64,000 nucleotides of DNA. Source: Niabella soli DSM 19437. Lineage in GTDB: Bacteria > Bacteroidota > Bacteroidia > Chitinophagales > Chitinophagaceae. The translations under genes and the position numbers were made by a program. Below the pieces are notes generated by a model. It worked only from the letters and a program-made list of their open reading frames with translations, was not told where the DNA came from and did not search any database. The stretch lies in contig NZ_CP007035.1 in assembly GCF_000243115.2 (NCBI RefSeq), forward strand, positions 3,844,001 through 3,908,000. Direction: 5' to 3'. Shown here piece by piece: positions 4,433-22,789 of this stretch (the first letter of the stretch is position 1; the number at the start of each line of letters is the position of its first letter).

Positions 4433-6376
4433 ATGATTGTATACCAGCGTACCAAGGAGGATTTTAGTAATGATGTGCTTACCAACACCATTGATACCAT
4501 CATTGCCGGGCAAATACGCCAAAAAACGGGTAAAGAAATAGGCCGCAGCGAACTGGACGCTTTTAAAAACTCCCTGGCTTATATGGATAGGGTGCTGCAT
4601 GATAAGGACATACCGGAGAACTGCGGCATATCAGTAGAATACCATATACCCCAAACCTGTAAACGGGTGGATTTTATAATATCCGGTACAGACGGGAAAC
4701 GGGAAAATGTAATAGTAATAGAATTGAAACAGTGGTCTGAAGCGTGGCTTACAGACCAGGACGGCATTATAGAAACCCGCTTTCGTGGTGGTGTAACCAG
4801 CACCAGCCACCCCTCCTATCAGGCGTGGTCTTATGCGGCGCTGCTGCAATCCTTTAATGCCACAGTAGAGGAAGAACACATTAACCTGCAACCCTGTGCT
4901 TACCTGCATAACTATATGCCGGATGATGTTATCACCAACGGGTTTTACAACTATTATATTGAAAAGGCCCCGGTATTCCTGAAGCCGGATGCGCTGGAGT
5001 TGCGTGCTTTTATAAAGCGCTTTATGAAGTATGGCGACACCACCAACATCATCGCCCGTATTGATAATGGTAAAATACGTCCTTCCAAAAGCCTTGCAGA
5101 TAGCCTGAAGTCTATCATGAAAGGGAATAAGGAATTTATCATGATCGATGATCAAAAAGTGGTGTACGAGCAGGCGTTGCACCTGGCCAAACATTCCAAT
5201 CCTAAAAACAAGAACGTGCTGATTGTGGAGGGTGGGCCGGGCACCGGTAAATCTGTAGTGGCCATTAATCTTTTGGTGGAGCTGAATAAACGGGGACAAA
5301 TGACGCAGTATGTTACCAAAACCAGCGCTCCGCGGGAGGTGTACTTTGACAAGTTGCAGGATGTGCGGCGTATGGCAGAATTAAGGAACCTGTTTGTAGG
5401 CTCGGGCTCCTTTATGCGGTCTCCTGAAAATGCTATGGCCGCCCTTATTGTGGATGAAGCGCACCGCCTTACGGAGAAAACGGGTTTTTTAAAACAGGGC
5501 GATAACCAGATAAGGGAGATTATTAACACTGCTGTCTTTTGTGTGTTTTTTATAGATGGCGACCAGCGGGTACATATTGATGATTATGGAACAACAGACC
5601 GTATAGAACAATTTGCGCTGGAAGCGGGAGCCAGGGTGCATAAAACGCAGCTGGCATCGCAGTTTCGCTGTAATGGGTCCGACGGCTACCTGGCCTGGCT
5701 GGATGATGTGCTGCAAAAAAGAGATACAGCTAATGATACATTGGATGCGGCCGGGTTTGATTTTGAGTTTAAAGTGCTGGACAGCCCCAGCGCACTGCGC
5801 GATCTTATTTTTGAAAAGAATACAATAAATAACAAAGCAAGACTGGTTGCGGGCTACTGTTGGGACTGGAAGAGCAAAAAAGTACCACTGGCCAACGATA
5901 TTGTTTTTCCGGAATATGATTTTCAAATGCAGTGGAACCTGAGCACTTACGGTTCTAAATGGATTATTGACCCTAACTCTGTAAACGAGGTGGGTTGTAT
6001 ACATACCTGCCAGGGGTTGGAGGTGGATTATGTGGGCGTTATTATTGGCGATGACCTTATCTGCCGGAACGGAGTGGTGATGGTAAATCCTGCCAAACGC
6101 TCAAAAGATGATAAATCAATTTTCGGGTATAAAAAGTTAATGAAGGAAAACCCGGAAGCCACCCAGGAATTGTTGCGGGCAATTATTAAAAATACGTATC
6201 GCGTACTGATGACTCGCGGCATGAAGGGCTGCTATGTGTATTGTACAGATCCGGAACTAAGAGATTACCTGAAACGCCGCCTGGGTGTGCCGGCAATCCA
6301 GGAGCCAATCATTGAGCCGGGCTTGCTGATTGCGGCGGAAGACCGGCCTAAGTATAAGACGAAGAGGGATGAATAG
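4433..6376 (+). CDS. DUF2075 helicase with N-terminal nuclease-like domain
   Basis: A 647-residue protein. The N-terminal part has a PD-(D/E)xK-like pattern (VDFIISG, then VIVIELKQW near residues 94-102). The central and C-terminal part is a DUF2075/Schlafen-type superfamily 1 helicase: Walker A EGGPGTGKS at about 265-273, Walker B ALIVDEAHRL near 337-346, a QFRC motif, CIHTCQGLEVDYVGVI, and YRVLMTRGMKG near the end. It is predicted to be an ATP-dependent DNA or RNA helicase with nuclease activity in the cytosol. Its operon partner upstream is a MazG-like pyrophosphohydrolase. Proteins of this type are frequent in defence islands; an antiviral role here is inference. Confidence 0.85.
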   Translation: MIVYQRTKEDFSNDVLTNTIDTIIAGQIRQKTGKEIGRSELDAFKNSLAYMDRVLHDKDIPENCGISVEYHIPQTCKRVDFIISGTDGKRENVIVIELKQWSEAWLTDQDGIIETRFRGGVTSTSHPSYQAWSYAALLQSFNATVEEEHINLQPCAYLHNYMPDDVITNGFYNYYIEKAPVFLKPDALELRAFIKRFMKYGDTTNIIARIDNGKIRPSKSLADSLKSIMKGNKEFIMIDDQKVVYEQALHLAKHSNPKNKNVLIVEGGPGTGKSVVAINLLVELNKRGQMTQYVTKTSAPREVYFDKLQDVRRMAELRNLFVGSGSFMRSPENAMAALIVDEAHRLTEKTGFLKQGDNQIREIINTAVFCVFFIDGDQRVHIDDYGTTDRIEQFALEAGARVHKTQLASQFRCNGSDGYLAWLDDVLQKRDTANDTLDAAGFDFEFKVLDSPSALRDLIFEKNTINNKARLVAGYCWDWKSKKVPLANDIVFPEYDFQMQWNLSTYGSKWIIDPNSVNEVGCIHTCQGLEVDYVGVIIGDDLICRNGVVMVNPAKRSKDDKSIFGYKKLMKENPEATQELLRAIIKNTYRVLMTRGMKGCYVYCTDPELRDYLKRRLGVPAIQEPIIEPGLLIAAEDRPKYKTKRDE

Positions 6377-6423
6377 CTAGAGTATTGTTTTGAGGAGAAG
6401 TTATACTAAATAATAGCGTCATT

Positions 6424-7137
6424 ATGAGAAGATTGCTTTATGTATTGCTTTGCATTTTTGTGGCAGCCGGTAACTGTGTTTATGCACAAAAGGACACGCT
6501 GCATGTTTTTAATAAGAAGGCATATGACCGCTATAGTGTTATAGCGGATAGTATTGTGCGGCTTTACTACATGGATGCCATGTTGCCATTTATTAGTAAG
6601 GATTCAGCCAGAAGCTATTATCGGACACTGAAAACTCCGGGGGGAGGCACTTCGAGCGAATTTGACAAGCCGCTGTCTTTTGAGCCGGAAATGTTTTGCT
6701 TCCGGTATTATTTTAAACACCCATCGTTTAAAGGGGATTCGGTGGAAATAAAGTTTTACATTCATAAAAATGGCACATTAATGTCTGGGTTTGTTCCAGA
6801 AGGATTGTTTGATATGCGCGGCATTGAACGGTTTGAAGCTATTACATCTTATAAAGCCCTTGAAATAGCCCAACAATTAAAAATAAAGCGACCGTTGAAT
6901 CATTATGAAGTTTCGCTGGGTTGGTATGAAGCGCGTATTTCGAATGAAGAATTTAAAAAATACGAGCTATCAAATGACTTGCGGGATTTTGTAAAAGGCA
7001 GGATTGTATGGCTGGTAAAAAGCGAGTATAAAATACCCAAGGAGGGCGATGAAACGCCCAATATAGAAACGTACCTGATTGATGTGTTGACGGGGAAAGT
7101 GCTGCAAGTATGGGAACACGCTGTTGACTGGGGATAG
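6424..7137 (+). CDS. Exported protein of unknown function
   Basis: A 237-residue protein with a clear signal peptide (MRRLLYVLLCIFVAAGNCVYAQ, cleavage after YAQ), so it is probably periplasmic. The rest is not recognised. The C-terminal segment, with YLIDVLTGKVLQVWEH, resembles the strand-turn-strand of PepSY-like modules, but only weakly. It lies 47 bases after the DUF2075 gene on the same strand; whether it belongs to that operon is unclear. Confidence 0.65.
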   Translation: MRRLLYVLLCIFVAAGNCVYAQKDTLHVFNKKAYDRYSVIADSIVRLYYMDAMLPFISKDSARSYYRTLKTPGGGTSSEFDKPLSFEPEMFCFRYYFKHPSFKGDSVEIKFYIHKNGTLMSGFVPEGLFDMRGIERFEAITSYKALEIAQQLKIKRPLNHYEVSLGWYEARISNEEFKKYELSNDLRDFVKGRIVWLVKSEYKIPKEGDETPNIETYLIDVLTGKVLQVWEHAVDWG

Positions 7138-7223
7138 AGGATGAACTTTTAATTGATGCCCTTAAGAATTGCTAATCATTTATTAATATAATGAGGTTAT
7201 AGATAATTAAAATGCAGCCCCTT

Positions 7224-7570
7224 CATATTCCACTGCTGAAGAGTGCGATCCCGCCTTCAGCGGGACAGGCTCCAAGACTGCTGCCATAAGCACTTCAGCC
7301 CGGCCAAAAAATATTTAGGAATCAATTTATATTTTCCTGTGTTGGGGTAGCGATGGCTTCTGCTTGTCCAGTTAGTCCCGCGAGCCCCACCAGGGCTATG
7401 TGCGACAATGGCAACCTGTAGGACGATGAGCTGGTGTTTAAAGGATAAGATTCCTCTCTCCGCTTTGCTGCGTTCGGAATGACGGTTAGGATTGGGGTTG
7501 GTTTTTATAAAGTAGATTACCTCCTGTATTCGTTAAACTTTATTTTTAACTTTACCTAAAATGTATAACC
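7224..7570. repeat. Long direct repeat, copy A (before dinD1)
   Basis: About 350 bp that match 11384-11708 almost throughout, ending at the start codon of a dinD gene in both cases. Landmarks shared by both copies are CATATTCCACYGCTGAAG, GGCCAAAAAATATTTAGGAA, a GTTGGGG block, GAGCTGGTGTTTAAAGGATA, a GCTGCGTTCGGAATGACGG block and TTCGTTAAACTTTATTTT. The first 75 bp contain an imperfect hairpin (CTGAAG...CTTCAG) around a CCCGCC/GGCGGG-like inner stem. A third, partial copy follows dinD2 at 12438-12640. Confidence 0.85.
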
Positions 7571-8425
7571 ATGAAAAAAGACATAACACAACAAGCATTA
7601 TCTGTGTTTGAACAAATTAAGCACACCGATGAAAACGGCAATGAATTTTGGATGGCAAGGCAACTTGCCAAAGCACTTGATTATACTGATTTTAGAAATT
7701 TTTCCGGTGTAATTGAAAAGGCCTGGGAGGCCTGTAAAAACAGTGGGCATAACCCTTTAGAACACATCGTTGAAACCAACGAGGTGTTAATTGCCGGGCA
7801 GGGAGCAAAACAAACTTACTCAAGCTATAAACTATCCCGCTATGCCTGTTATTTAATTGTACAAAATGCAGATCCGTCCAAAGAAGTAGTAGCACTTGGA
7901 CAAAGTTATTTTGCCGTGCAAACAAGATTGCAGGAAATAACGCAGATGGAAGCCTATAACCGCCTTAGCTCCGAAGATGAAAAAAGGCTTTTTCTGCGTA
8001 ATGAAATGGCTAAGCACAATATCCATTTAGCAGCTGCCGCCAAAAATGCCGGGGTAATAACTTCTCTTGACTATGCCATTTTCCAAAATCATGGGTATAT
8101 GGGTTTGTACGGCGGGCTTGATGCTAAAGGCATACATAAAAGAAAAGGGCTTGCGAAAAGCCAGCAAATACTTGACCATATGGGAAGTATCGAACTGGCT
8201 GCCAATTTGTTTCGTGCCACGCAAACAGAAGAAAAATTGCGAAAGGAAAACATACAAGGTAAGCCAAAGGCCAACCAAACTCATTTGGAGGTAGGCAAAA
8301 AAGTACGCCAAACTATTAGAGAGCTTGGAGGAACCATGCCCGAAAACCTGCCCACGGCCGCTAGCATTAAAAAACTGGAAACGGCGGCTAAACCAAAACA
8401 ATTAAAACCCAAGAGAGAAAAGTAA
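7571..8425 (+). CDS. dinD: DNA damage-inducible protein D (DinD), intact copy
   Basis: A 284-residue, full-length DinD: N-terminal BRO-like region (FWMARQLAKALDY), SRYACYLIVQNADPSKEVVALGQ, FAVQTRLQEI, EKRLFLRNEMAKHN, FQNHGYMGLYGGLD, DHMGSIELAANLFRATQTEEKL and a GKKVRQTIRELGGTMPE tail, all closely following the E. coli protein. E. coli DinD is SOS-induced and reported to inhibit RecA activities; the role here is inferred by homology. The coding sequence contains a palindrome at 7761-7788, at the same aligned position as a palindrome of different sequence in dinD2. The upstream 350 bp are shared with dinD2. Confidence 0.9.
   Translation: MKKDITQQALSVFEQIKHTDENGNEFWMARQLAKALDYTDFRNFSGVIEKAWEACKNSGHNPLEHIVETNEVLIAGQGAKQTYSSYKLSRYACYLIVQNADPSKEVVALGQSYFAVQTRLQEITQMEAYNRLSSEDEKRLFLRNEMAKHNIHLAAAAKNAGVITSLDYAIFQNHGYMGLYGGLDAKGIHKRKGLAKSQQILDHMGSIELAANLFRATQTEEKLRKENIQGKPKANQTHLEVGKKVRQTIRELGGTMPENLPTAASIKKLETAAKPKQLKPKREK
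7761..7788. repeat. Palindrome inside dinD1
   Basis: Arms AACACATCGTTG (7761-7772) and CAACGAGGTGTT (7777-7788) pair at 11 of 12 positions around the loop AAAC. It encodes residues 64-73 of DinD1. Its centre (7774.5) falls at the same aligned nucleotide position as the dinD2 palindrome once the single extra upstream codon of dinD1 is counted. Confidence 0.75.
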
Positions 8426-8460
8426 TTTGCCTCAGGATGGGGAGGGGCGAACAGCGATCT

Positions 8461-8494
8461 ATGACCATTTTCGTGCTTTCACGAAAATGGTCAT
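8461..8494. repeat. Intergenic palindrome of the dinD2 type
   Basis: Perfect 15-bp arms, ATGACCATTTTCGTG (8461-8475) and CACGAAAATGGTCAT (8480-8494), around the loop CTTT, 36 bases after the dinD1 stop. It shares the core CATTTTCGTG-N4-CACGAAAATG with the palindromes at 11895-11924 and 22760-22789. There is no T-run after it, so it does not look like an ordinary terminator. Confidence 0.85.
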
Positions 8495-8766
8495 ATTGGG
8501 AAATGTACCTCAGCGTGCCCCATAAAAACCCCCTCCCGTTATTTTAAAAAACTGTTGAGATAACTTAAAATAGTTGTTGTTTGTTCCATAAGGCTTACAT
8601 GCCCCTGCGCGGGAACAATGGCCAACTGGGATTTTGGCTTTACCCCAAAATCGGCAACTACATTGCCGCCCAGCAGAGTTTTATAGCTATTAGATTAAAA
8701 CCCGGCGAAATTATTGAAGTATGCAGCGGCAGGACACATTTTAAAGAAAGCTTTTTAAGCCCGCAT
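8495..8766. other. Intergenic region, possible gene remnant
   Basis: An open frame from about 8581 runs on the plus strand into the end of the convergent restriction gene (74 codons, with the stretch FIAIRLKPGEIIEVCSG). No family is recognised and there is no clear start signal. It may be a remnant of a longer gene or chance; I do not call it as a gene. Confidence 0.3.
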
Positions 8767-9480
8767 CTACAAAAGTCTTATGCCATGCAGACGCACATAT
8801 TTTAATGGAATTTTGGGATTATTAATATCCTTATCACCATCGGCGCTCCATTTCTTCTCCCAGGCAACATAGTAAGGTTCAAGATGCGCTGGTTTTAACT
8901 TATAAATCTCAAGTAATTCGATGCCTTCATAGACCGCGAAAATCCAGTCAACTTTCCTGTATTTTTTGATTATGGTTGGATTCATGTGGTGATGCGTAGA
9001 AAAGCTTTTGGTTAGCCGAATGTTTACTGATTTTAGTTCATATTCATTTCCTGCATCATCCACCGCATCATTGCCTTCCCTCCCCGGTAAAATTTTTAAA
9101 CCGGTGTGGAGAAGAACCTGTAACAGTTTTCCGCCATTATCCTGGAATATATCGTTAATTCCATTTGCTTCTGCAAGTGTTTGGAATCTGCGGATCTGCG
9201 GCAAAATCATGTTAAGAGCGATAAGTTCTTCATTTTTGCTGGCGGTGTATATAGTAATAAGATTCGGATCTAATAAATCAAAAAGTGTAACATTTAGCGC
9301 CTGGGCAAGCGAAGCGGCTTTTTCAACGGTAATATTGTATTTGGCGTTCTCAATATATCCAATATAAGTTCTGTCTATTTCTGCAAGATCTGCTAAGTTT
9401 TGTTGTGAGAAACCAAGTCGTCTTCTCAAAAAAGCAATATTTTTTGCCAATATTTCCTGGTAAGCATTTGGTTCGTTCAT
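8767..9480 (-). CDS. PvuII-type restriction endonuclease fused to N-terminal controller (C-R fusion)
   Basis: A 237-residue protein. Residues 1-75 are an XRE helix-turn-helix like the separate controller C.PvuII ([20 protein letters not shown], then TYIGYIEN). Residues from about 85 on match R.PvuII almost end to end: [53 protein letters not shown]. The PvuII catalytic residues D34, D58, E68 and K70 align with D114, D138, E148 and K150, a constant offset of 80, and the active-site histidines are kept. The predicted cut is CAG^CTG. The N-terminal domain should act as autoregulator. It is divergent from the cognate methyltransferase with 101 bases between starts. Only the fusion departs from the classical layout. 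Confidence 0.93.
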
Positions 9481-9498
9481 CTAATTTTGTCTTTATTA

Positions 9499-9506
9499 CA
9501 AAAATA
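9499..9506 (-). promoter_or_regulatory. Candidate -7 element of the C-R gene
   Basis: On the minus strand this reads TATTTTTG, matching TAnnTTTG, 19 bases before the ATG at 9480. It would place transcription start near 9493. Confidence 0.4.
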
Positions 9507-9527
9507 ATTCTTTTGACTAATAATTTG

Positions 9528-9541
9528 CCGAGTATATTCGG
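9528..9541. promoter_or_regulatory. Candidate controller operator (C-box-like palindrome)
   Basis: CCGAGTATATTCGG is a near-perfect 14-bp inverted repeat in the divergent gap between restriction and methyltransferase genes. Its centre lies about 41 bases before the predicted start of the C-R transcript, where an activating controller dimer would be expected to bind. The sequence differs from the GACT/AGTC core usual for C.PvuII-type boxes, so the assignment is tentative. Confidence 0.4.
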
Positions 9542-9581
9542 AATTGGTTAAGTTTGCTTACTTTGGTTAACTAGATATAAT

Positions 9582-10607
9582 ATGGCAGGTTATAAAACAA
9601 AATACGGGGAGGCATTTTGCAGAGATGCTCTTTTAGCGCTGGATGATTTACAGGATAATTCAGTAGACCTGGTTGTCACAAGTCCCCCATTTGCCCTTTT
9701 GCGGAAGAAAGAATACGGGAATGAAAGTCAGGAAGCCTATGTGAACTGGCTTGCTCAATTTGCCAGGGTTGTATATGCCAAATTGAAAGATACCGGTTCT
9801 TTTGTTGTAGATATTGGGGGCGCATATATGCCTGGTATTCCTTCCAGAAGCTTGTACAATTTTAGAGTACCCATACATTTTTGCGATCATTTGGGATTTT
9901 ATCTGGCGGAAGATTTTTATTGGTATAATCCCTCAAAGCTGCCGAGTCCTATTGAATGGGTGAATAAAAGAAAGATCCGGGTTAAGGATGCTGTGAACAA
10001 TGTGTGGTGGTTTAGCAAAACGCCCTACCCAAAATCAGATGTCACAAAGGTTTTAACTCCCTATAGCGACAGGATGAAAAAGTTGATAGAAAACCCTGAA
10101 GGATTTTATACCCCTAAAGTGCGCCCTTCAGGTCATGATATTGGAGGAAGTTTTGGTAAAGATAATGGGGGGGCAATTCCTCCCAACTTATTACAGATTG
10201 CGAATGCAGAATCTAATAGTAGCTATCTAAGTCATTGTAAAAATCTGAAAATAAAGAGCCATCCTGCCAGATTCCCAATTCAGCTTCCTGAATTTTTTAT
10301 AAAAATGTTGACTGATGAAAATGATTTGGTTATTGACATATTTGGAGGTTCAAACACAACGGGTTTAGCATGCGAACAGTTGAAGAGAAGATGGCTATCT
10401 TTCGATTCAGATCAACAATATGTCGCAGCATCAGCATTGAGGTTTTTACCTAAAGAGTCAAGAATTAAGGACGTTGCATCTATTTATTTTTCTATTTTAG
10501 ACGGGAAAAATATTGAAATCATTGATGCTTTAACAAATAAGTTGGAAAATAGCCCTTCTGTAGATAGACAAATAGAAGAATTACTTGAATATCTAGATCA
10601 AAACTGA
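9582..10607 (+). CDS. N4-cytosine DNA methyltransferase, M.PvuII-like
   Basis: A 341-residue beta-class methyltransferase. The catalytic motif TSPPF (33-37) comes first and the SAM-binding motif DIFGGSNTTG near residue 250 comes last, as in M.PvuII. Long stretches match that enzyme as I recall it: EDFYWYNPSKLPSPIEWVN, KIRVKDAVNNVWWFSKT, YSDRMKKLIE, PSGHDIGGSFGKDNGG and HPARFP. It should methylate the inner cytosine of CAGCTG and protect the host from the divergent C-R endonuclease. The C-terminal 60 residues, after ASALRFLP, are the least conserved part. Confidence 0.93.
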   Translation: MAGYKTKYGEAFCRDALLALDDLQDNSVDLVVTSPPFALLRKKEYGNESQEAYVNWLAQFARVVYAKLKDTGSFVVDIGGAYMPGIPSRSLYNFRVPIHFCDHLGFYLAEDFYWYNPSKLPSPIEWVNKRKIRVKDAVNNVWWFSKTPYPKSDVTKVLTPYSDRMKKLIENPEGFYTPKVRPSGHDIGGSFGKDNGGAIPPNLLQIANAESNSSYLSHCKNLKIKSHPARFPIQLPEFFIKMLTDENDLVIDIFGGSNTTGLACEQLKRRWLSFDSDQQYVAASALRFLPKESRIKDVASIYFSILDGKNIEIIDALTNKLENSPSVDRQIEELLEYLDQN

Positions 10608-10635
10608 TATATACTTAAATGTTGTATTCGAGAGG

Positions 10636-11196
10636 TCATTTTATAATCTTTAACTCATCAATTTTATTCTTTGCCGCTGTAAATGCTTCGTCAATTATAT
10701 CGGCATTGTCAATGAACAAAGTGTTATCTGAGCCATATTTTTCTAAGGTAATGTACCATTTGGCTTTTCCCTTCTCTACATAATAACCTACCTGAAAACC
10801 ATCATCCGTTACAAATTTGTTTTCCATATAATCAGGGTTGGCTGCAATGTCATTACCAACCTCTGCTTTTAGTGCCTTTACTGCTTTTAAAACTTCAATC
10901 AAATCGCTATATTCAATTGAGGCAGTGGTATTGCTGTATTGGCCTTTCTTTACAATCTGGTAAAAATACCCATTTATAGAACCTCTGGAAATTTTGCGAA
11001 TTCTTGTTTCTGCTCCAATATAAGAAGTTTTCATGTTGGGTAATTTGGTATCTACAAATCGCATGAGGCTTCCTGTTTTTGAGGCAAAAGCATCCATTTT
11101 CGTTTTAAATGTTTCGCCCTCTTTTTTTACTTCTTGTCCATAAGAAATTATTGTAGTGATAAGAAGTGCAGTAATAGTCAATAGTTGTTTAAGCAT
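10636..11196 (-). CDS. Exported protein of unknown function
   Basis: A 186-residue protein with a typical Bacteroidota signal peptide (MLKQLLTITALLITTIISYGQ, cleaved after YGQ), so it is probably periplasmic. The mature part alternates beta strands and ends in the helix EAFTAAKNKIDELKIIK. I do not recognise a family. It is convergent with the methyltransferase (28-bp gap) and lies between repeat copies A and B, so it may have travelled with the restriction system or be a stranded local gene. Confidence 0.65.
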   Translation of the reverse strand: MLKQLLTITALLITTIISYGQEVKKEGETFKTKMDAFASKTGSLMRFVDTKLPNMKTSYIGAETRIRKISRGSINGYFYQIVKKGQYSNTTASIEYSDLIEVLKAVKALKAEVGNDIAANPDYMENKFVTDDGFQVGYYVEKGKAKWYITLEKYGSDNTLFIDNADIIDEAFTAAKNKIDELKIIK

Positions 11197-11295
11197 AGCA
11201 TCAATAATTTATTTGGCGCGAAGTTTTGGATTTTATCTCTTGATTTTTTACGGGAAGCCGTAAGGGTATAAAATGCTGGAACAAGATATCAGAGA

Positions 11296-11326
11296 GAGCC
11301 CTCCGCTCACCTGCTGAGGAGGGCTC
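11296..11326. repeat. Hairpin in the region before dinD2
   Basis: Arms GAGCCCTCC (11296-11304) and GGAGGGCTC (11318-11326) with a 13-base loop. The surrounding 70 bp resemble bases 3936-4000, so this belongs to a dispersed intergenic repeat rather than to a terminator; no T-run follows. Confidence 0.55.
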
Positions 11327-11383
11327 GGTTGGGATGACAAAAACATGTACCCCCGTGGATGACGGAGTAGGGCGTTGCTCCTC

Positions 11384-11708
11384 CATATTCCACCGCTGAA
11401 GTGTGCGATGCAACGATGCTACGATATGCACTTCAGCCCGGCCAAAAAATATTTAGGAATTAATTTGTATTTTTTTCAATGTTGGGGGTAACGGTGGCTT
11501 TTTGCCGGTCCTGCTAGTCCCACAAGTCCCACTAATATATGTGACAAAGGCGACTTGCGGGAGATGAGCTGGTGTTTAAAGGATAAGATTCCTCCCTCCG
11601 CTTCGCTGCGTTCGGAATGACGGTTAGGATTGGGGTTGGTTTTTATAAAGTAGATTGCCCCCTATATTCGTTAAACTTTATTTTTAACTTAACCCAAAAT
11701 GTATAACC
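11384..11708. repeat. Long direct repeat, copy B (before dinD2)
   Basis: About 325 bp that match copy A (7224-7570) and end, like it, at a dinD start codon. The hairpin-forming left part (CTGAAGTGTGC...TGCACTTCAG, 11394-11429) differs from A inside the loop, while the right 260 bp are nearly the same. A and B are in direct orientation around dinD1, the restriction system and the gene at 10636. Confidence 0.85.
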
Positions 11709-12447
11709 ATGAAAAAAGAATTGATCACCGAATTATTACAAAAATTTGAAGCCGCCTGCTATGAAGTAAAAGGCGTGGAATGCTGGAGCGCCCGGGAGCT
11801 GCAACCCATTTTGGGCTATAGCCGCTGGGAAAACTTTTCTAATGCGCTGGATAAAGCACGTAAATCCTGCGAAGCCGCCGGGGAAGCGGTGACCGATCAT
11901 TTTCGTGATGTCACGAAAATGATCGAATTGGCTAAGGGAGCGCAGCGTCTTGTTCAGGATATTGCGCTTACACGCTATGCCTGCTACCTGGTAGCGCAAA
12001 ATGGCGATCCGGCCAAACCGGCCATTGCTTTTGCTCAAACTTATTTTGCAGTGCAAACCCGCAAGCAGGAAATTATTGAGCAGCGCCTGTTGGAAGTAGC
12101 AAGGGTATCGGCCCGTGAAAAACTGACCAAATCGGAGAAAAAGCTGTCGGGCATTATTTACGAACGCGGGGTGGATGAGCAGATTTTTTGCCTACGCTTA
12201 CCATCAAAGCCAAGGATTTTGCTACGGAGCTAACCAGTCATAACGTAGTGGAAAAAGACCTGAAAGGCAGCCAGCAAATATCTCAAAGGAACATGTAGAC
12301 AATAATAAAGCGGTAAGGGACATGCTAAACGAGCGGGGTGTACAACCGGAAACATTGCCAGTGGCGGAAGACATTGCCAAACTGAAACGAAAGCTGGACG
12401 GCGACGCAAAAAAGATATTGAAAGATACCCGGAAAAAAAACATTTAG
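11709..12447 (+). pseudogene. dinD: Second dinD copy, disrupted by internal deletion and frameshift
   Basis: The frame opens as a DinD/BRO-N protein ([75 protein letters not shown]). After base 12180 the usual central part is missing. Another frame continues with [18 protein letters not shown] and NVVEKDLKGSQQIS, and near 12283 the frame shifts again to KEHVDNNKAVRDMLNERG and the tail DGDAKKILKDTRKKNI with stop at 12445-12447. So about 35-50 codons are lost and there are two frame breaks. The N-terminal 157 residues could still be made. A perfect palindrome at 11895-11924 lies in the coding part. Confidence 0.85.
11895..11924. repeat. Palindrome inside dinD2
   Basis: Perfect 13-bp arms GATCATTTTCGTG (11895-11907) and CACGAAAATGATC (11912-11924) around ATGT. 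It encodes [10 protein letters not shown], residues 63-72. It is nearly identical to intergenic palindromes at 8461-8494 and 22760-22789, and it occupies the homologous place of the dinD1 palindrome. Confidence 0.9.
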
Positions 12448-12640
12448 GAATCAATTTGTGTTTTCCTGTGTTGGGGTAGCGGTGGCTTTCTTGCTTGTCC
12501 AATTAGTCCCGCGAATCCCACCAGTATGTGTGACAAGGGCGACTAGTGGGACGATGGGCCGGTGTTTAAATGATACGATTCTTTGTCCGTCTTATGACGG
12601 AAACCTGATTCGATAGTTGGATGACGATTGAGATGGGGGT
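12438..12640. repeat. Long direct repeat, copy C (after dinD2)
   Basis: Starting with ACATTTAGGAATCAATTTGT, this segment follows copies A and B through the GTTGGGGTAGCGGTGG block, the GTCCCGCGA block, TGTGACAAGGGCGACT and the GGTGTTTAAATGATA block. It diverges near 12575. It therefore brackets dinD2 with copy B as direct repeats. Confidence 0.75.
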
Positions 12641-12650
12641 TGTTTTTCTT

Positions 12651-14348
12651 TTACTTTAATACTAATTTGGTAACCGTTTTTGTGTACGTGTCTCCAACTC
12701 CGTTAACACCCTTTCCTGCAAAAATGAATTCATTGTTATTGGAATAAAGCATGCCTCCGGATACATCATACAACGGGGAAACAACTTCCCGGAGCTTTTC
12801 CGTGGCCGGATCGAACTCCCAGTTTTTAACCCTGGTATAACCGTAACCCACTCCCCCGGCAAACCGTTCCCAACAGTCGAAGATATATCCTTTGCCGTTG
12901 TAACTAAAGCAGGTCGAACTGGTAAAGGGATAAGGGCCGGCCCCGGGCCCGGGAGATCTGATCAGTCTCCAGGAGTCATTTGGAATATCGTATTCCCAGA
13001 TCTCATTTGTAAATAAGTAACTGTCATAAGTGCTTTCCAGCCAGCCGCCGGCCATATAGGCTTTATTGCCGATAACAAAACTTCCGGCCTGCGTCCGGCT
13101 TCGGCCGGGAAAATCCTTTAGTCGCGTCCATTGACCATTGGCGGTGTTATATTTCCAGAATTGATTTCTGAAATACTGGGTGTAATATCCATCGGAAGTG
13201 TAAATATCTTTTCCCGAGGTTCCCGTGCCAAAATATATGAAACCATTATATTGGAAGGCATAGGTTTGACTGCGGACGCCTTCCGGAATGGAATCCCGTT
13301 TGAACCAATCGTTATTTGCAAAATCGTATTCCAATACATTCGCCAGCGGTGACCTTGGCTTAAAAAGCTGGGGCGGTAGATCCGGGTCGTCATAAGCGCC
13401 GCTGATCACCAAAAGCCGGTCGCCCACGGGCTGAGCAAGTGGAGTGGTGAGTTTCATAGCGTGCTTAGGGGCAATAAATTTCCATTCATTTGTTGCGGGA
13501 TTATATTCTCTGATCTCATTAAAACTTACAGTTTCGCCAGAGGCGCCAAGATACCATTGCGAATAGGCGCCACCGATGAGGTAGCCTTTCCCTTTAAATG
13601 GAACGGCGGAAAAGCTTTGTATATTATTGTCTGCATTTGTATTGGGATTTACCTGAACTTCATAAGCACCCAGGGGAAACCATTTTCCAAAATAGATATA
13701 ACAAAAATCATTTGTTTCGAGCCCCAGACTTGAAATTTTAATTCTTCTGCTGCCTGAAGCAATGGTCTCCGGGATTTTAAAGAATATCGTGTTTTCCTGT
13801 CGCCCGGTAACCTTACACTCCGTTGTATCAATCCATACCCGCACCTCTGGTTTATTATTCCCTTTTGAATTGATGCGGATGGCATTAAATTCTGACGGAC
13901 TGCAATAGCTGTAGTTTGCGGAGCCGGCAGGGTAATCAATTTTAAGACTATCTGTTTTTATGATTTCTTCCATGCTAAAAGCAGAGTCCTTTCCATTATT
14001 GACAAATAGTTTTACTGAATAACTTGTATTTCCTTTCAGACCATCAATAATTGTTTTGTCAGAAATATTGGCTGCGGCATCTTTACCAAGAATAAGCACT
14101 TTTCTGCCGGCATTTGCATCATCGGAGGGTTCTAAAATCAGGCCGTAGGAATTCAGTGATCCGCTTTTACTAAGGTCAACGGAATAGGAAAGCTGAAAAA
14201 CATTTAAGTCCATTTGGGTAACCTGGCTGATCTCGAGTTTTGAATTGGGGAGAAGATTGGGAAGCTCTTTTTTCTCCTGGGTTTTAGAACAGGAAAAGCC
14301 AAGCAGGCTGATGATAAACAGCAGAGGCAAGCATGTTAGTTTAAACAT
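12651..14348 (-). CDS. Kelch-repeat lipoprotein with IPT/TIG-like domain
   Basis: About 565 residues from the Met at 14348, which begins a lipoprotein signal (MFKLTCLPLLF, lipobox LLGFSC); a Met nine codons earlier is possible. After the lipid anchor come a fibronectin-III-like domain (about 30-130) and an IPT/TIG-like domain (about 135-220). A Kelch beta-propeller region fills the rest (repeats with GKGYLIGGAY, VGDRLLVISGAYD, NGFIYFGTG, GNKAYMAGGW, NEIWEYDIPNDSW). It probably sits at the outer membrane facing the cell surface or periplasm. Binding partner unknown. It stands alone on the minus strand after the dinD island. Confidence 0.8.
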   Translation of the reverse strand: MFKLTCLPLLFIISLLGFSCSKTQEKKELPNLLPNSKLEISQVTQMDLNVFQLSYSVDLSKSGSLNSYGLILEPSDDANAGRKVLILGKDAAANISDKTIIDGLKGNTSYSVKLFVNNGKDSAFSMEEIIKTDSLKIDYPAGSANYSYCSPSEFNAIRINSKGNNKPEVRVWIDTTECKVTGRQENTIFFKIPETIASGSRRIKISSLGLETNDFCYIYFGKWFPLGAYEVQVNPNTNADNNIQSFSAVPFKGKGYLIGGAYSQWYLGASGETVSFNEIREYNPATNEWKFIAPKHAMKLTTPLAQPVGDRLLVISGAYDDPDLPPQLFKPRSPLANVLEYDFANNDWFKRDSIPEGVRSQTYAFQYNGFIYFGTGTSGKDIYTSDGYYTQYFRNQFWKYNTANGQWTRLKDFPGRSRTQAGSFVIGNKAYMAGGWLESTYDSYLFTNEIWEYDIPNDSWRLIRSPGPGAGPYPFTSSTCFSYNGKGYIFDCWERFAGGVGYGYTRVKNWEFDPATEKLREVVSPLYDVSGGMLYSNNNEFIFAGKGVNGVGDTYTKTVTKLVLK

Positions 14349-22759: not shown

Positions 22760-22789
22760 GATCATTTTCGTGATAGCACGAAAATGATC
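22760..22789. repeat. Intergenic palindrome of the dinD2 type
   Basis: Perfect 13-bp arms GATCATTTTCGTG (22760-22772) and CACGAAAATGATC (22777-22789) around ATAG. The arms are identical to those inside dinD2 (11895-11924), more than 10 kb away. It lies in the 98-bp gap between the YdeI-like and SRPBCC genes. Confidence 0.9.

Follow-up and report, generated by a model that had tools for sequence, protein, structure and literature searches.

Each of the two dinD genes in a 64,000-nucleotide stretch of the Niabella soli DSM 19437 genome (hereafter the window, to which all coordinates refer) contains a palindrome within its coding sequence. These palindromes are probably the DNA-binding sites of the DinD proteins themselves, each placed inside its own gene, with autoregulation as the most likely effect and with free-standing copies elsewhere as putative decoys or marks. 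Among dinD genes the site is conserved and self-complementary, its variable codons form complementary pairs, and its bases obey a residue-to-base code. Sites of the same alleles occur outside dinD in viral contigs, where they are present in some phages and absent from their relatives, and where the allele changes among related phages. From these observations we infer dimeric binding, autoregulation and a decoy or mark function. The simplest reading of the covariation is that a DinD dimer binds the palindrome as DNA, in which case the gene would encode its own binding site.

dinD1 (7571–8425, plus strand) is intact and encodes 284 residues, comprising a Bro-N winged-helix domain followed by a helical C-terminal domain. 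It matches the NCBIfam DinD model NF008573 with 404.8 bits (E = 2e-121, cut-off 242) and is thereby a member of the family; the match to Pfam Bro-N has E = 3.6e-11, and both genes exceed the Bro-N cut-off. dinD2 (11709–12429, plus strand) is a pseudogene. Its first open part (11709–12233) scores 216.4 bits against NF008573 (5e-64), under the cut-off, and the DinD similarity runs on in pieces in other frames, one of which includes a stop. The dinD1 self-site (7761–7788, plus strand) pairs at 11 of 12 positions between the arms 7761–7772 and 7777–7788, and its core (7763–7786) reads CACATCGTTG-AAAC-CAACGAGGTG, with the half-site triplet GTT/GTT. The dinD2 self-site (11894–11925, plus strand) has 15 perfect pairs between 11894–11908 and 11911–11925 around the perfect core CATTTTCGTG-ATGT-CACGAAAATG (11898–11921). 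A preliminary description of this DNA had located both palindromes, the dinD2 arms being slightly longer than given there, and had placed them at the same aligned site; indeed, dinD1 codons 64–73 (EHIVETNEVL) align with dinD2 codons 63–72. The null model redrew synonymous codons 1000 times from the usage of each gene while holding the protein constant. Against it, dinD1 pairs at 11 of 14 positions where the null mean is 6.1, and dinD2 at 14 of 14 where it is 10.2; both give p = 0.001, the smallest value possible.

The window also holds two free-standing sites of the dinD2 type, which we call the CGT allele. The first (8460–8495, plus strand; 16-nt perfect arms) lies 34 bp past the dinD1 stop, in a flank that resembles a dinD remnant when compared by eye with the dinD gene of genome G016 (locus L007). 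The second (22760–22789, plus strand; 13-nt perfect arms) lies between two minus-strand open reading frames (ORFs). The pattern CATTTTCGTG-N2-12-CACGAAAATG finds these two and dinD2, three matches in the whole 4.70-Mb genome; the reversed pattern, run as a control on the same genome, finds none.

dinD genes were collected irrespective of the palindrome from 395 genomes of the window's phylum (inferred to be Bacteroidota), of which 77 contain a dinD match, from the best 80 of 230 viral relatives and from the window itself (two genes); 29 further loci were read. Merging identical sites reduced 112 genes to 91 distinct sites. The codon-shuffled comparison with the protein fixed, which the preliminary description had put forward, gives these sites a mean of 11.1 of 14 pairs versus 8.1 under the null; the outcome named there as refuting, no excess in other dinD genes, is not seen. 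Uncorrected per-site p values fall below 0.05 for 62 of the 91 sites and below 0.01 for 36. The pairing is spread over most of the set, with at least 10 of 14 pairs in 77 sites and nine or fewer in 14. A site of the E. coli type, GACCATTTCGAGGAGATCCTCGATATGGTC, has one internal mismatch and is matched in 1884 of 5426 E. coli genomes, 1880 times at 95% identity or more; among the 60 matches listed, 59 lie in dinD and the last (85.7%) in a hypothetical protein. E. coli DinD (NF008573, PRK11525) belongs to the same family, and its own-type site sits in its dinD.

The palindrome codons encode the first wing strand of DinD, HFx[DE]VyKM, in which the residues x and y, flanking the centre, vary as complementary codons over the 91 sites: V..N (GTT/AAC), R..T (CGT/ACG), A..G (GCC/GGC), G..T, P..R, E..L, V..D, V..H and others. 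These codons are fully complementary in 55 of the 91 sites and at two of three bases in 29 more. In total, 229 of 273 bases are complementary, versus 119.8 when y is shuffled (sd 7.3, maximum 150 in 10,000 shuffles); with each of the 34 distinct codon pairs counted once, the figures are 73 of 102 versus 35.1 (maximum 53, 10,000 shuffles). The H..M codons sometimes change in a complementary fashion too (CAC..GTG, CAA..TTG). Protein constraint alone, with HF..V.KM coded by complementary codons by chance, would account for part of the pairing, for CAT TTT (H-F) and AAA ATG (K-M) are inherently complementary and the codon null already stands at 8.1 of 14. As the whole explanation it is extremely improbable: the pairing exceeds this null, which argues against a full account, x..y and at times H..M change complementarily, and copies are found outside dinD-like frames.

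The variable bases of the palindrome are tracked by residues 40 and 42 of the recognition helix, which are encoded outside it, about 70 bp away. In the AlphaFold2 (AF2) model of dinD1 (mean predicted local distance difference test score 91.9), helix 29–35, helix 41–57 and strands 66–74 and 80–88 follow one another in what we read as the order of a winged helix-turn-helix, and D40-F41-R42 (codons 7688–7696, plus strand) stand at the start of the predicted recognition helix. Covariation was analysed in 177 DinD proteins, those with fewer than 200 aligned residues having been dropped. Since the palindrome was the main reason for retrieving the loci of 81 of them, most weight belongs to the remaining 96 genes, sampled irrespective of it. 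When DinD pairs are binned by identity and divided into same-allele and different-allele pairs (3154 and 3623, respectively), residues 40 and 42 differ at rates of 0.91 and 0.67 in different-allele pairs versus 0.14 and 0.07 in same-allele pairs, and switch with the allele more strongly than any others after the coded positions 67 and 70. On a tree of the 177 proteins, built without the site and without residues 40 and 42, the allele changes 53 times, and in 35 of these cases residue 40 or 42 changes as well. Uncoded columns with at least 15 changes were ranked by how large a fraction of those changes falls on allele-change branches; the top three are residue 43 (14 of 22, 3.3 expected), residue 40 (28 of 48, 7.2 expected) and residue 42 (17 of 30, 4.5 expected); the next column has 8 of 18 versus 2.7.

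Counted over half-sites, E42 goes with C (172 of 178) and R42 with G (131 of 134), while R40 goes with G (156 of 158), E40 with T (59 of 72), K40 with C (38 of 44) and Q40 with C (32 of 34). The corresponding counts in the 96-gene set are 27 of 32 and 117 of 120 for residue 42, and 10 of 12, 57 of 70, 36 of 42 and 24 of 26 for residue 40. R or K at residue 43 coincides only with C at base 3 (11 of 11), and this base may be read by residue 43. Residues 40 and 42 of other clusters (65% clusters, only genes with equal halves) predict the allele in 109 of 126 cases, whereas the nearest out-of-cluster relative shares it in 59 of 137; for the 96 genes the figures are 34 of 49 and 23 of 57. Both window paralogues fit the code as derived from the alignment: D40/R42 of dinD1 pairs by covariation with G[T/G]T, and the R/E of dinD2 codons R39-W40-E41 (11823–11831, plus strand; residues 40–42 in dinD1 numbering) pairs with CGT. 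A residue-to-base code and equal half-sites mark a sequence-specific dimeric regulator, and DinD shows both in a statistical sense. Of the three roles proposed in the preliminary description, an operator for the DNA-binding product is the one that the covariation favours.

The same description had concluded that the fold-back, not the sequence, is kept. Self-complementarity is conserved as the sequence changes, but within each allele the sequence is kept as well, and its bases follow residues 40 and 42. Conservation of the fold-back itself, whether as a hairpin of the dinD messenger or of single-stranded DNA, is unlikely. Each of the four window copies does form a good fold as single-stranded DNA (z −4.1 to −8.1), and the pair adjoining the core is complementary in 167 of 177 dinD genes (84 of 88 in the pattern set), beyond the preference in viral sites. 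The halves, however, are unequal mainly where the residue does not discriminate. At base 1 they differ in 5 of 156 genes with E or R at residue 42 versus 13 of 21 with another residue (Fisher 8e-11), and at base 2 they do so in 7 of 161 genes that lack D40 versus 8 of 16 that have it (Fisher 3e-6); the 96-gene set gives 4 of 76 versus 13 of 20 and 7 of 82 versus 8 of 14. A hairpin would be indifferent to residue 42, whereas a non-discriminating subunit would tolerate unequal halves, and the pattern therefore argues for a two-half DNA site. For an RNA hairpin in particular, wobble-tolerant pairing or a known RNA family would be expected. Mismatches on the coding strand comprise 67 A.C versus 45 G.T cells, which is no wobble preference, and an Rfam search of window positions 6000–14000 returned no match up to E 1; the messenger hairpin suggested earlier was rejected on these grounds. 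Finally, sites of the dinD1 type occur in eight viral stretches, and all six distinct sites keep an identical internal mismatch in the imperfect form CACATC...GAGGTG. One of them (L674) resembles a piece of a gene related to dinD1; the other five lie outside dinD-like frames.

Several unusual genes agree with the two-half reading of the site. One with E40/R42 (L427) has no internal site and carries a GTT-type site 51 bp before its aligned start, and another with R40/E42 (L087) has one internal arm mutated and a perfect CGT site upstream; such distances are counted from the outermost aligned DinD residues (first or last), start and stop codons being unverified. In the divergent genes L408 and L415 the palindromes are shifted 12 nt downstream and their bases still fit, with GTTTTTCGG.. 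accompanying R40/E42 and GTTTTTCCC.. accompanying K40/D42, as the code predicts. Seven genes do not fit (L378, L387, L397, L329, L404, L416 and L417); they show weak internal symmetry, and no other site was found within 1.2 kb of them.

Sites also occur outside dinD, defined here as outside any ORF of at least 50 residues with a dinD match (phmmer 1e-5 or hmmsearch 1e-4), a threshold at which some sites may be dinD fragments, as L674 is. Cellular genomes hold the CGT-type 24-mer in at least 114 stretches and viral contigs in at least 120. Among the matches listed, 80 of 127 cellular sites and 14 of 120 viral sites lie in a dinD-like frame, and the 106 viral sites outside such frames represent at least 101 distinct sites; 77 of the 106 fall outside any ORF of at least 70 residues, gene calls around sites being crude ORFs throughout. 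The GTT type occurs in at least 120 viral stretches (at least 84 distinct sites outside and at least seven inside dinD-like frames) and the GCC type in 80 (63 distinct sites outside, four inside). A control allele unseen in dinD, CATTTTACAG..CTGTAAAATG, and a scrambled control palindrome, CTTATTCGTG..CACGAATAAG, have no viral match at all. These controls bear on a purely mutational origin of the symmetry. Correction of imperfect palindromes by template switching is an established process that would yield complementary codon pairs and keep the arms alike with no function. It would leave unexplained both why residues 40 and 42, whose codons lie some 70 bp off, track the allele and the presence in viruses of real alleles versus zero control palindromes, and we regard it as highly improbable.

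In named phages, GTT-type matches outside annotated genes occur in Flavobacterium psychrophilum phages (e.g., FpV9), in Fusobacterium phage FNU_1P, in Providencia phage PSTCR7lys with the unequal halves GTTG..CACC, and in pneumococcal phage EJ-1 with different outer bases. Several streptococcal satellites have a GTT-type match inside dinD, and the DinD of one of them, Javan727, combines E40/R42 with GTT/AAC, as the code predicts. The CGT-type query is covered to at least 80% in 23 phage records, and one of the matches listed falls in a gene annotated as dinD. The exact E. coli dinD site is present in MG065686.1 and MG065691.1 (Campylobacter phages A18a and A11a); these two records may contain E. 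coli sequence.

Related phages differ in the site they carry. In 80 related TerL loci the stretch past the stop codon takes the form of 65 distinct sequences, among which, by our reading, a palindrome is clear in 11, decayed in 12 and absent from 42 (a few of the last end early). At this one place the allele may be of the CGT type, half changed to CGT/CCT (L438, L440) or of the GTT type (L452). One member (L453) has a CCT-type site followed by a CGT-type site, and L441 is alike with its second site decayed. Tandem pairs of different alleles occur in four other viral loci (L151, L158, L171 and L214, the last in the TerL family). As far as the aligned sequences tell, phage sites appear, vanish and change allele among related phages. 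By eye, several viral sites outside dinD (e.g., L124, L133, L143, L154, L222 and L224) directly follow the T-tract of an apparent intrinsic terminator. A terminator role was considered and rejected; the TerL-family site precedes an apparent terminator hairpin, also by eye, so the sites have no fixed relation to terminators.

Cores common to a host gene and a phage could be attachment sites (attB/attP), at which phage recombinases integrate into dinD. We scanned 104 of 193 flanking proteins of viral sites outside dinD, picked by us, and found nine integrase and five serine recombinase matches; in one locus (L123) the integrase ends 14 bp from the site. Most of the 104 matched no recombinase, however (TerL 7, portal 4 and many others), whereas an integrase would be the rule at attachment sites. 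In addition, sites are stacked with other alleles, and members of the TerL family differ in whether a site is present at the stop codon. Two prophage-like contigs (L215 and L228) were noted in which dinD is reduced to its N-terminal part beside a repressor-like gene, the sequence departing from dinD just past the palindrome; although only the dinD start is kept there, no clean junction is seen at the site. The attachment idea was rejected on the examined flanking genes and on these junctions, and is very unlikely to be correct.

A small mobile palindromic element of the REP type, spread from dinD, would produce extra copies of the kind found in two loci. L099 (2135–4886) is a tandem array of about 125-bp units containing GACCATTTTCGTGACCCCACGAAAATGGTC or close forms, with nine exact core copies plus imperfect ones. 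L083 (3396–4655, on a contig labelled as the archaeon Methanimicrococcus) has dinD and, besides the palindrome of 33 nt inside it, three more copies of this palindrome, two of them within 113-nt dinD repeats and one read by eye into a ribosomal-protein-like frame. The many dispersed copies per genome that characterise such elements are not seen in N. soli, with only three CGT-type copies in 4.7 Mb, and the alleles within dinD obey a protein code; spread of this kind is a quite unlikely account. REP/RAYT palindromes and phage attachment sites are short intergenic palindromes and cores common to host gene and phage, respectively. The DinD site differs from both in that it is not high copy, has no constant partner enzyme that we could see, and has an allele that follows DinD residues.

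If DinD does bind the palindrome, it would do so as a dimer in which two winged helix-turn-helix domains are arranged symmetrically and read one half-site each, of about A-Y-CATTTT-xyz-G-R. The start of the recognition helix would read xyz, residue 42 taking base 1, residue 40 base 2 and perhaps residue 43 base 3. Because the codons of the site encode the first wing strand, the wing is altered whenever the site changes. Bound DinD would block transcription of its own gene, giving feedback on an SOS-induced protein, and free-standing sites in phages and hosts would titrate DinD as decoys or label the DNA in which they lie. Granted binding, feedback combined with phage decoys is the most likely use, at about even chances. 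A self/non-self password, in which DinD acts against DNA without its site or withholds protection from it, is a tentative and less probable possibility. Being inseparable from its site, the gene would then be safe; relic sites that outlast dinD decay and the stacked multi-allele sites of phages would represent retained immunity; and an arms race would drive new alleles, each needing matched changes in residues 40 and 42 and in the wing codons.

A number of observations weigh against DinD as the reader of its own palindrome. The evidence for binding is covariation and modelling throughout, the AF2 model is of a monomer, and 81 of the 177 proteins stem from loci chosen mainly by the palindrome. 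No change at residue 40 or 42 falls on the same branch in 18 of the 53 allele changes. Sites within 600 bp upstream of dinD are rare (7 of 177 genes), and those in L301, L021 and L059 differ in allele from their own gene, so that autoregulation is not general via upstream sites. The pair adjoining the core is complementary in 38 of 45 cellular sites outside dinD but in only 28 of the 101 viral sites listed, where independence would give 43. Viral sites outside dinD tend toward one C-type and one T-type half, and a plain operator model does not explain these pairs. The CGT-type query has no match in E. coli genomes, and the E. coli-type query finds two exact copies in Campylobacter phages and otherwise only matches of E 0.01 or worse in named phages. 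To our knowledge, DinD has no known operator role. A literature search, with preprints and most subscription journals outside its reach, returned no description joining DinD with a palindrome, internal site, operator or code. E. coli DinD is known for its SOS induction and reportedly inhibits RecA strand exchange (PMC4129442, citing Uranga 2011).

The closest fold match of dinD1 counts both for and against specific dimeric binding. DdrC of Deinococcus radiodurans is a damage-induced DNA-binding protein that has been solved as a dimer, which favours the binding model. It is the best Foldseek match (2e-5); the five matches with E of 0.001 or below have template modelling scores of 0.33–0.38 on the query, and a weak profile match (E 0.002) covers only residues 132–249, in the helical C-terminal part. 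On the other side, DdrC reportedly binds DNA irrespective of its sequence (PMC5436757); sequence specificity would consequently be peculiar to DinD.

Other systems share single features with the DinD site. Operators inside coding regions exist, for example lac O2 in lacZ; the DinD site likewise lies within a coding region and differs by encoding its putative reader's own DNA-binding domain and changing with it. Phages mimic the RNAs of type III toxin-antitoxin systems with short copies of the host regulatory element. The phage copies of DinD sites are similarly short, but they are apparently double-stranded DNA, come in many alleles and are carried by unrelated phages. If dinD spells out, in the codons for the DNA-binding domain, the very DNA that its product recognises, with the alleles of both evolving together, it would be an unusual case of overlapping genetic information. 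This would give DinD, an SOS gene product of unclear role, a concrete and testable function. A simple two-residue recognition code follows from the DinD data, and the unrelated phages with same-allele sites may point to an unrecognised contest with phages.

Among 148 dinD neighbours, a random draw from 172, the commonest Pfam matches are restriction-modification families (N6_N4_Mtase 10, ResIII 7, N6_Mtase 5, Methylase_S 5, Eco57I 5), and PADLOC concurs. The site pattern is found in 55 of the 395 phylum genomes, a count that includes chance matches (the reversed control is found in seven, and 13 listed sites have non-matching arms). Two such sites outside dinD (L547, L548) lie between helicase-like and type III-like methylase genes, one (L549) beside methylase-like and DUF262-like genes, and one (L550) after a type I methylase-like gene, these neighbours being named by reading ORF translations without a family search. 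In L544 two sites lie directly past dinD, with arms extending far past the core (AATAACGCCGACCATTTTCGTG...). The near-palindrome CATTTTCTTGAGGTCAGGAAAATG, or one related to it, recurs in five genomes (G252, G264, G268, G276 and G303); no dinD adjoins it at the two places read (L552, L553).

In the window, the 260-bp non-coding stretches upstream of dinD1 (7302–7562) and dinD2 (11440–11700) are 85% identical and have only short matches elsewhere in the genome. A stretch past dinD2 (perhaps 12440–12650), which the sequence comparison did not report, looks akin to this repeat by eye. Between dinD1 and dinD2 sits a gene for a PvuII-like restriction endonuclease with an N-terminal helix-turn-helix (8767–9480, minus strand; Pfam PF09225, 3.1e-62). 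The N6_N4_Mtase DNA methyltransferase encoded at 9582–10607 (plus strand; Pfam PF01555, 4.8e-43) is likely its partner.

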